From Deltaproteobacteria bacterium (GTDB lineage: Bacteria; Desulfobacterota; Desulfuromonadia; Desulfuromonadales; Geopsychrobacteraceae), in the NCBI GenBank assembly GCA_024276905.1, contig JAJRWF010000015.1, forward strand, positions 1 to 36,633: a stretch of 36,633 nucleotides of DNA, written 5' to 3'. The notes beneath the pieces were generated by a model. It ran no database searches. It was not told where the DNA came from and saw only the letters and a program-made list of their open reading frames with translations. Shown piece by piece: positions 19,045 to 21,875 of this stretch. Each line of letters opens with the position of its first letter. Within the stretch, counting starts at the first letter, position 1. The position numbers were made by a program, and so were the translations under genes.

Positions 19045-19370
19045 CCCTCCCTGACATTTCTTCCCGTCTGCAATCTCCCGTGCAGGCTGTTGTCAATTTA
19101 TACCTCAACGGAAGAATAATCGACGAAAATCCTCACTGTTTATCTGGATATTTCTAAATATTCAGTCACGTTACTCCTTCCCCGACTGCGAGACCGCGAC
19201 AAAACGGCCCATGAGGGTGCTGAGTAACAGAAATCAATGTGCTTTCAGTTTTTTAACAGCAAATGTTTGCGTATCTGGCACCCCTCATTTATAATTTCAA
19301 TCATTAATATTCGCTCAGTTGCAGGTGAAGATCCGCATAAAATCTGATAACCTGGATGCCGAGGTGCAAT
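19045..19370. other. Divergent intergenic region between AsmA and HDOD genes
   Basis: 326 bp without a gene. It holds the candidate HDOD promoter at 19267-19295. On the minus strand a TATAAA sits around 19096-19101 without a convincing -35. No RNA gene or repeat is apparent. Confidence 0.5.
19267..19295 (+). promoter_or_regulatory. Candidate sigma70 promoter for the HDOD operon
   Basis: TTGCGT (19267-19272) and a perfect TATAAT (19290-19295) are separated by 17 nt. The -35 is weak (TTG only), so an activator may be needed. The predicted start is near 19302, about 70 nt before the GTG start. Confidence 0.5.
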
Positions 19371-20612
19371 GTGACCCGCATTTTTGTCGATGATCTGAAC
19401 GAGGGGATGGTCCTGGCCTCTGATCTGGTAACGCCCCAGGGCAGGTTCATCCTGGCTGCCGGGGCAACCCTGCAATCAAACCACCTGAAAATCCTTAAAT
19501 CCTGGGGGATAACCGAGGCCGATATCATCGATGAAAGCTGCGGAGAGCAAACGGAACAAAAAATCGAGATTGACGCCGACAGCTATACACTTGCTGAAGA
19601 ATTCTTGCTCGAAAAATTCACTGCACTCGATCTTGAACATGAGCTGATTTCAGAACTTTTCCGGCAAGTCCATCAAAACCTGGCTCAAAAATTAAGCGAG
19701 GGCTATGTGCTGCCGGTGCTGCCGTCGCTGACCCTGCCCGAGGAAGAGACAACACGCACCAGCCCGGCCCAGATGATCCGCGGTGAAATTCAGCTGGCAT
19801 CGCTCCCGAATGTCTACACCCGCATTGTAGAAACACTCAATTCGCCACGTGCGTCATCCAGTGCGATTGCCGATATCGTCAGCAAGGATTCAAGTCTGTC
19901 GATCCGCCTGCTACGGCTGGTTAACAGTGCATTCTACGGGTTTCCATCCAAAATCGATTCGATCAGTCGCGGAATCACCCTGCTCGGGACCAATGAGCTG
20001 ACAACCCTGGCATTGGGAATTTCCGTTGTCCGGCTGTTTCAGGACATCCCGAATGAACTGATCAACATGGAAACCTTCTGGAAGCATTCGATCCGGTGTG
20101 GACTTTTTGCCCAGGTTCTTGCGAGCCACAAAATCGGTCTGTCTGAAGAAAAACTTTTTGTCGGCGGGCTGCTACACGATGTCGGTCGGCTGGTTATGCT
20201 GCGGAAAATCCCTGAAAAATACACCCGGGTTATTCTCCTCTCGCGTGAGGAACAACTGCCGCTCTACCGCGCTGAACAAAAAATTCTGCATTGCGATCAT
20301 GCCGAAATCGGGCGTCTGCTCGCCAAAGAATGGCACCTGACCAGTGCCCTGACCCAGATGATCGGCGGTCATCACAGTCCGGCAATGGATCGTTTTCCGC
20401 AGGAAGCCTGCATTGTCCATGTTGCCGACCTGCTGGCCCATGCCTGCGGCGATGAGTTACTGATGACCACCCATATCCCACCGTTGCAGATCAAGGCATG
20501 GGAAGCGATCGGACTCTCCCCGAGCATCCTGATCCCGACAATCCATCAGGTTGACCGTCTCTTCCGCGATATTGTGCGTGTGTTCCTTGACCATTCACTT
20601 GATGACGACTGA
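19371..20612 (+). CDS. HDOD-domain signalling protein with complete HD metal-ligand set
   Basis: HDOD proteins are HD-superfamily signalling proteins, many non-catalytic. This one has about 413 residues. The N-terminal 75 residues (IFVDDLNEGMVLASDLVTPQGRF) resemble the small beta domain often placed before HD/HD-GYP modules. The HDOD core starts near LASLPNVYTRIVETLNSP. All metal-ligand positions of active HD enzymes are kept: KHSIRCG, LLHDVGRL, CDHAEIG, GGHHSP and VHVADLL. There is no GYP motif, so c-di-GMP hydrolysis is not implied. I chose GTG 19371 because GAGG lies 6 nt upstream; an ATG at 19356 adds five residues but lacks a ribosome binding site. The GAF gene follows after 24 bp. Confidence 0.85.
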   Translation: MTRIFVDDLNEGMVLASDLVTPQGRFILAAGATLQSNHLKILKSWGITEADIIDESCGEQTEQKIEIDADSYTLAEEFLLEKFTALDLEHELISELFRQVHQNLAQKLSEGYVLPVLPSLTLPEEETTRTSPAQMIRGEIQLASLPNVYTRIVETLNSPRASSSAIADIVSKDSSLSIRLLRLVNSAFYGFPSKIDSISRGITLLGTNELTTLALGISVVRLFQDIPNELINMETFWKHSIRCGLFAQVLASHKIGLSEEKLFVGGLLHDVGRLVMLRKIPEKYTRVILLSREEQLPLYRAEQKILHCDHAEIGRLLAKEWHLTSALTQMIGGHHSPAMDRFPQEACIVHVADLLAHACGDELLMTTHIPPLQIKAWEAIGLSPSILIPTIHQVDRLFRDIVRVFLDHSLDDD

Positions 20613-20636
20613 TCTAACCGAGGGCGGAGGCTGCAC

Positions 20637-21533
20637 ATGTCCGATCTTCTGAAAAAAATAGATTTACTCGAACGCGAGGTTGCCCACCTGACCGAAGAAC
20701 GTCGCTTTGCCATGAACACCCTTGAGATGGCAGCCAACATGATCACCTTCGATTCAGGCCCTGCCGACCTGATCGACCAGGTTCATACCCTGAGTGAAAC
20801 CGCCAGTAAAATCCTCTCGATGCTCAGTTTTGAAGCGATCTGTTTCTATCTGATTAACGAAGAAGATGCGTCTTTTTACCTGGCCTACTGTGAACCAGAA
20901 GAGTTCCAGCCCCAACTTGAGAAAATGATTGATCTGCTGATCGAGGATCAGACCTTTGCTTGGGCCCTGGGGAGAAAACGGCCGGTTCGCGTTGAAATCG
21001 AAAAGGAGTGCCGAACCCTGCTGCTGCACTCGCTGACTACGGCCTCGCGGACCCGTGGGATGTTCGTCGGCATTCCGATCGAAGAGGAAGATGAATTTGA
21101 ATCGCCACTGCCGCTACTGACACTGGTCCTCCATTCCAGTGCGAATATTCTTGAAAGTATTGAGCTTTACCACAAGTTGCGCACCGTCAACCGTTCCCTG
21201 GAAGCCAATGTTGCCAAACTTGAACAAAGTGAGCAGGAACTGCAGAAACAGCGACTCTATCTGGAGGAACTGATTGAACAAAAAAACGGCGACCTGGCTG
21301 TGGCACGAGAGTCCGGAGAACAAACGCCCCGGATAAAGAACCGGTTTCTGCCTCGTATCATGCAGGAGATAAGTACTTCGCTCGCTGATCTCATCAAAAA
21401 GACGAACGACCTGCTTGACTCAGAACTGGATGCCAGGCAACAGGATCAGGCTCGGGCCATCAACAAAGAGGCCCGCAATCTGGCCACGATCATCAGCAAC
21501 ACCCTCGGTACGGACTCGAAATTCAGCGGGTGA
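20637..21533 (+). CDS. GAF-domain protein with degenerate histidine-kinase dimerisation segment
   Basis: A 298-residue soluble protein. After an N-terminal helix (1-30), residues 45-175 look like a GAF domain (TASKILSMLSFEAICFYLIN; GMFVGIPIEE). A coiled coil spans about 180-225. Residues 234-292 follow the HisKA pattern closely: NRFLPRIMQEISTSLADLI sits where kinases have FLanMSHEIRTPLnaII, and the helix ends ARNLATIISNTL. The phospho-acceptor His is replaced by Gln243, and no HATPase domain follows before the stop. It therefore cannot work as a kinase and may be a dimerising partner of the HDOD protein (inference). ATG has GGAGG 6 nt upstream. Confidence 0.8.
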   Translation: MSDLLKKIDLLEREVAHLTEERRFAMNTLEMAANMITFDSGPADLIDQVHTLSETASKILSMLSFEAICFYLINEEDASFYLAYCEPEEFQPQLEKMIDLLIEDQTFAWALGRKRPVRVEIEKECRTLLLHSLTTASRTRGMFVGIPIEEEDEFESPLPLLTLVLHSSANILESIELYHKLRTVNRSLEANVAKLEQSEQELQKQRLYLEELIEQKNGDLAVARESGEQTPRIKNRFLPRIMQEISTSLADLIKKTNDLLDSELDARQQDQARAINKEARNLATIISNTLGTDSKFSG

Positions 21534-21755
21534 AAGTGGGCGGAAACACCCCTGCAATAAGATTCTAATATACTGAATTCATTATTTAAATTATGATTAT
21601 TAAGAAAAAAACCTTCCTGGCTTGATAAATTTACGGATAGCGATATATTCAAGCCTGACCGGTTGATATTCATTTGTCAGCGGCAAGAGTTCAGTACCCT
21701 GTCCGACAGCATGAAATCAGCCCCACAGTTTTTTAGTTAACCATTTCAGTCTTTT
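21534..21755. other. AT-rich intergenic stretch before hcp
   Basis: 222 bp between the GAF gene and the hcp operator. The part from about 21560 to 21640 is strongly AT-rich and contains a run of seven A. I see no gene, clear terminator or repeat in it. Confidence 0.4.
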
Positions 21756-21806
21756 TTTGACTGACGTCAAAGTTTACGCTGTAACGGCTCTGCTAGGGTG
21801 CAGCAT
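21756..21806 (+). promoter_or_regulatory. HcpR/FNR-type operator and candidate hcp promoter
   Basis: TTTGACTGACGTCAAA (21756-21771) has perfect half-sites TTTGAC/GTCAAA around 4 bp and fits the TTGACnnnnGTCAA pattern described for HcpR, a CRP/FNR-family activator of nitrosative-stress genes in related anaerobes. An extended -10, TGCTAGGGT, places TAGGGT at 21794-21799 and a start near 21805. The operator centre is then about -41.5, the class II activator position. Confidence 0.65.
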
Positions 21807-21875
21807 CTCGTAAAGAGATCCCCCTGACAAACCGGCCGGATATCGGCCAACAACCCTTAAGAGGAGAATGAATTC

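Follow-up and report, generated by a model that had tools for sequence, protein, structure and literature searches.

The hcp gene in this window (by which we mean the whole 36,633-nucleotide stretch that was analysed) encodes an intact, full hybrid cluster protein, and the intergenic gap between its start and a gene ending at 21533 holds a short palindrome. Is this palindrome an operator for an HcpR-type regulator, where is such a regulator encoded, and would it switch hcp on or off? The first-pass annotation read the palindrome as an HcpR-type operator at -41.5 of an extended -10 promoter and expected the regulator to be encoded elsewhere. Rodionov (2004, PMC545781; 2005, PMC1274295) predicted the motif wyTTGACnnnnGTCAArw in Geobacter and Desulfuromonas, with hcp, frdX, nrfHA, ndh, and nar among the predicted targets, plus dnrN in Desulfuromonas.

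Predicted operator and promoter upstream of hcp

The sole zero-mismatch instance of TTGACN4GTCAA in the window is TTGACTGACGTCAA, located 105 bp before hcp (Table 1). As such, this gene carries the TTGACnnnnGTCAA operator that marks the delta-proteobacterial HcpR (HcpR1) regulon. The loose pattern, i.e. with up to two mismatches, is found 23 times in the window against 16.5 expected, and the 3.08-Mb genome contains 7 perfect copies compared with 8 for the reversed control. Because the motif string alone is not enriched, the evidence for the operator lies in its position and conservation.

Analyses of 39 hcp upstream regions, taken from the window and its relatives (the nearest named ones being Geopsychrobacter and Geothermobacter, Desulfuromonadales) and scored by the best motif match within 330 bp, reveal a perfect motif in 22 and a single mismatch in 13, together 35 of 39. 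Shuffled upstream regions yield no perfect motif, and one mismatch in 1.2%. Since the motif was picked as the best match in each region, the promoter downstream of it provides an independent test. Specifically, in 33 of 36 relatives TANNNT follows the site at a distance of 20–23 bp, compared with 0–4 of 36 for other four-base offset windows. The best -35 match at the proper spacing averages 1.9 of 6 positions vs 2.5 at random positions, i.e. below background.

In the window, the extended -10 lies 23 bp past the operator. Its hexamer is weak (3/6), yet the position is conserved, and the extended TGn is seen in several members of the genus. With the operator centred at 21763.5, a start at 21805 would place it at -41.5 and a start at 21806 at -42.5. 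By sequence, the promoter therefore has the centre near -41.5 from the predicted start, the -10, and the lack of a -35 that characterize class II activation, which is the best reading given that no -35 element is present. Conserved spacing and a missing -35 give these promoters the appearance of class II activator promoters, and, judged on position and conservation, the predicted hcp operator is very probably a genuine binding site for an HcpR-type activator. Both parts of the first-pass reading, the operator and an extended -10 where a class II activator needs one, thus hold up, the second with spacing conserved across relatives.

Table 1. Positions of features at the hcp promoter (window coordinates) and of a related site on contig C175.
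Feature	Position	Strand	Basis or remark
Predicted HcpR-type operator TTGACTGACGTCAA	21757..21770	+	Perfect match, conserved before hcp in relatives; preceded by T run, 21752-21756
Extended -10, TGC-TAGGGT, without -35 hexamer	21791..21799	+	TGC, 21791-21793; TAGGGT, 21794-21799; TANNNT conserved at 20-23 bp past operator
Predicted transcription start	21805..21806	+	Position of the -10
Possible small hairpin ATCTC-GTAAA-GAGAT, transcript 5' end	21805..21819	+	Some same-genus promoters only
AGGAG ribosome-binding site	21862..21866	+	Sequence
hcp, hybrid cluster protein (NCBIfam: hydroxylamine reductase), 543 aa	21876..23507	+	NF003658, TIGR01703, PF03063
Operator-like site	L240, C175, about 41085-41098		Before operon of small unassigned protein, frdX-like protein, and hemerythrin protein

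The same site could instead serve a repressor relieved by NO, as proposed for Desulfovibrio desulfuricans, where HcpR2 is modelled as an hcp repressor inactivated by NO (PMC5701242), and repression is possible for CRP/FNR proteins. We consider this improbable at hcp, where the site lies upstream of the -10 and does not overlap it, the spacing is constant, and there is no -35. The candidate regulator described below also lacks the FNR-type N-terminal cysteine motif; it has only two cysteines (14 and 29), and is therefore not an FNR-type Fe-S sensor.

Even less probable is that TTGACT, the left half, functions as a standard sigma-70 -35 element partnered by TGTAAC (21780-21785), with the palindrome incidental. 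A TTGACT-N17-TGTAAC arrangement does exist in the window, and the -35 consensus begins TTGAC. However, TANNNT occurs at the matching offset (a gap of 9) in 0 of 36 relatives, against 33 at a gap of 20–23, and this reading leaves unexplained that the right half, GTCAA, is conserved as well as the left in these relatives. We reject a simple -35/-10 reading of TTGACT on this conservation evidence, and retain that of an operator.

Other features were observed around the promoter. The hairpin ATCTC-N5-GAGAT at the presumed hcp 5' end is shared with two promoters of the genus (L092 and L096), and folding of the 5' hairpin averages -3.6 kcal/mol vs -2.7 kcal/mol for mononucleotide shuffles. We do not claim a conserved hairpin, because it is clear only in some genus members. 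Just upstream of hcp, 19356-21533 holds an HDOD-domain gene, then a GAF-like protein whose dimerisation region resembles that of histidine kinases, seemingly without an ATPase domain.

A candidate HcpR-type regulator

The genome encodes just two proteins that score above the cut-off for the CRP-type helix-turn-helix family, and both are on other contigs, which agrees with the first-pass view that no regulator gene lies near hcp. One of them, a CRP/FNR protein of 227 aa on contig C178 (L001), has as its closest solved structure the NO sensor DNR (E 2e-33) and a recognition helix, GTVSETLSR, that provides S180, E181, and R185 (CRP numbering). A genome scan for an HcpR homologue is thus positive: the DNR/HcpR-like C178 protein has the predicted recognition residues, i.e. 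those of HcpR1 regulators (Ser/Pro-180 followed by Glu-181), and Ser/Pro at position 180 was tied to the HcpR motif by Rodionov 2005 (PMC1274295). At L001:367-1386, just downstream of the regulator gene, lies galE; a Desulfuromonas galE is listed with an HcpR site in Rodionov 2004 (PMC545781).

Relatives of the C178 protein, 54–86% identical, are present in most of the family, and GT(V/T)SETLSR is found in all 31 aligned family orthologues (the C178 protein included). A search of 44 family genomes at the threshold used detected no regulator of this type in 12, several of which are incomplete. In three loci (L067, L077, and L089), the regulator adjacent to hcp has the helix GTIPETLSR, and the hcp genes there carry a perfect motif. 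The best matches of the C178 protein to hcp-adjacent regulators, those of these three loci, show 43–44% identity, with the deep forks of the tree weakly supported. Rodionov puts the delta-proteobacterial HcpR branch beside DNR (PMC545781, PMC1274295); our tree places DNR unreliably because of its long branch.

The other protein over the cut-off (C94, 232 aa) is found at L002:1048-2423, immediately before a cytochrome P460 gene. Control of hcp by this protein is hardly credible: although the genome offers just two candidates and this one has a P460-type cytochrome as neighbour, its unusual helix GSSREAVAE (R180, E181, E185) is not of the E..SR type and it falls in a separate clade in the tree.

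The C178 protein, our preferred candidate, resembles the NO-responsive activator DNR of Pseudomonas aeruginosa (PDB 3dkw) in sharing the E-T-x-S-R recognition residues. It differs in its site, as DNR controls denitrification genes via TTGATnnnnATCAA (PMC1274295), and in that C178-type proteins do not conserve the DNR histidine that aligns with Cys14. Operators before nir, nor, and nos genes are the mark of a DNR regulon. By contrast, 30 of 31 family members and three hcp-adjacent regulators share His76 (C178 numbering), which is Glu in DNR. It is possible, if doubtful, that haem is ligated differently in delta-proteobacterial HcpR proteins, through a set of residues specific to them. The HcpR of Porphyromonas gingivalis (PDB 9DAY, PMC12750200) likewise has a CRP/FNR fold, and is a haem NO sensor for which haem-NO activation of hcp was shown. 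However, it belongs to the separate, more distant HcpR2 branch and is a weaker match (E 2e-13).

Predicted regulon and mode of control

Scanning the genome with TTGAYN4RTCAA returns 33 places, most within long ORFs. Intergenic TTGAYN4GTCAA followed 22–23 bp later by a TA-type -10 is found before hcp, a ferredoxin gene on contig C38, and the nar operon (C175; cytochrome c-narG-narH-narJ-narI-narK-narK), although the nar -10, TATCTA, is not an exact TANNNT fit. The C38 ferredoxin (240 aa) is taken as frdX because its homologues adjoin hcp in about 10 other hcp loci and adjoin the regulator in two. The motif scan suggested by the first-pass annotation thus locates the motif, in intergenic DNA and with matching promoter spacing, before frdX and nar, two known HcpR targets, and the 22-bp spacing at both is kept in many relatives. 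A further site, TTGACCTGGATCAT, has two mismatches and a -10, TAATCT, at 22 bp, and precedes the small C175 operon listed in Table 1. This hemerythrin/frdX-like operon is perhaps a split Fe-S repair system.

In all likelihood, hcp has the operator of an activator-dependent promoter at which the C178 regulator, of the HcpR type, would act in class II fashion, probably switched by NO and haem, as part of a shared regulon. The C178 regulator, of DNR-related type, would bind TTGACTGACGTCAA as a dimer centred some 41.5 bp before the start and from this position make the RNA polymerase contacts of a class II activator. It would probably be turned on by NO via bound haem, and a regulator switched in this way would lead to hcp being made under nitrosative stress, along with frdX, the nar operon, and the hemerythrin/frdX-like operon. 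Some points count against the activator model, i.e. the weak -10 found here, the repressor model for D. desulfuricans (PMC5701242), and a related genome (G001, rated 100% complete) in which the operator is present before hcp and frdX (L097 and L230) and no CRP/FNR protein exceeds the family cut-off.

The system matches the HcpR1 regulon of Geobacter and Desulfuromonas in its motif, its targets (hcp, frdX, and nar), and a Ser/Pro-180 regulator without FNR cysteines; unlike in the description of that regulon, the regulator here is not adjacent to hcp. Our measurements over many genomes add the fixed -10 spacing and the missing -35. As both motif and regulon were predicted by Rodionov in 2004 and 2005, the hcp site is a further case of a known switch, well supported and of a design that recurs across related iron-reducing bacteria. 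This extends the 2005 prediction to another Desulfuromonadia lineage, names a regulator for it, and develops the motif into an exact model of the promoter, i.e. operator, 20–23 bp, -10, and no -35. The predicted switch probably turns on nitric oxide detoxification and, while no concept is changed, the promoter model can be used for annotating nitrosative-stress genes in the metal reducers of the Desulfuromonadia.
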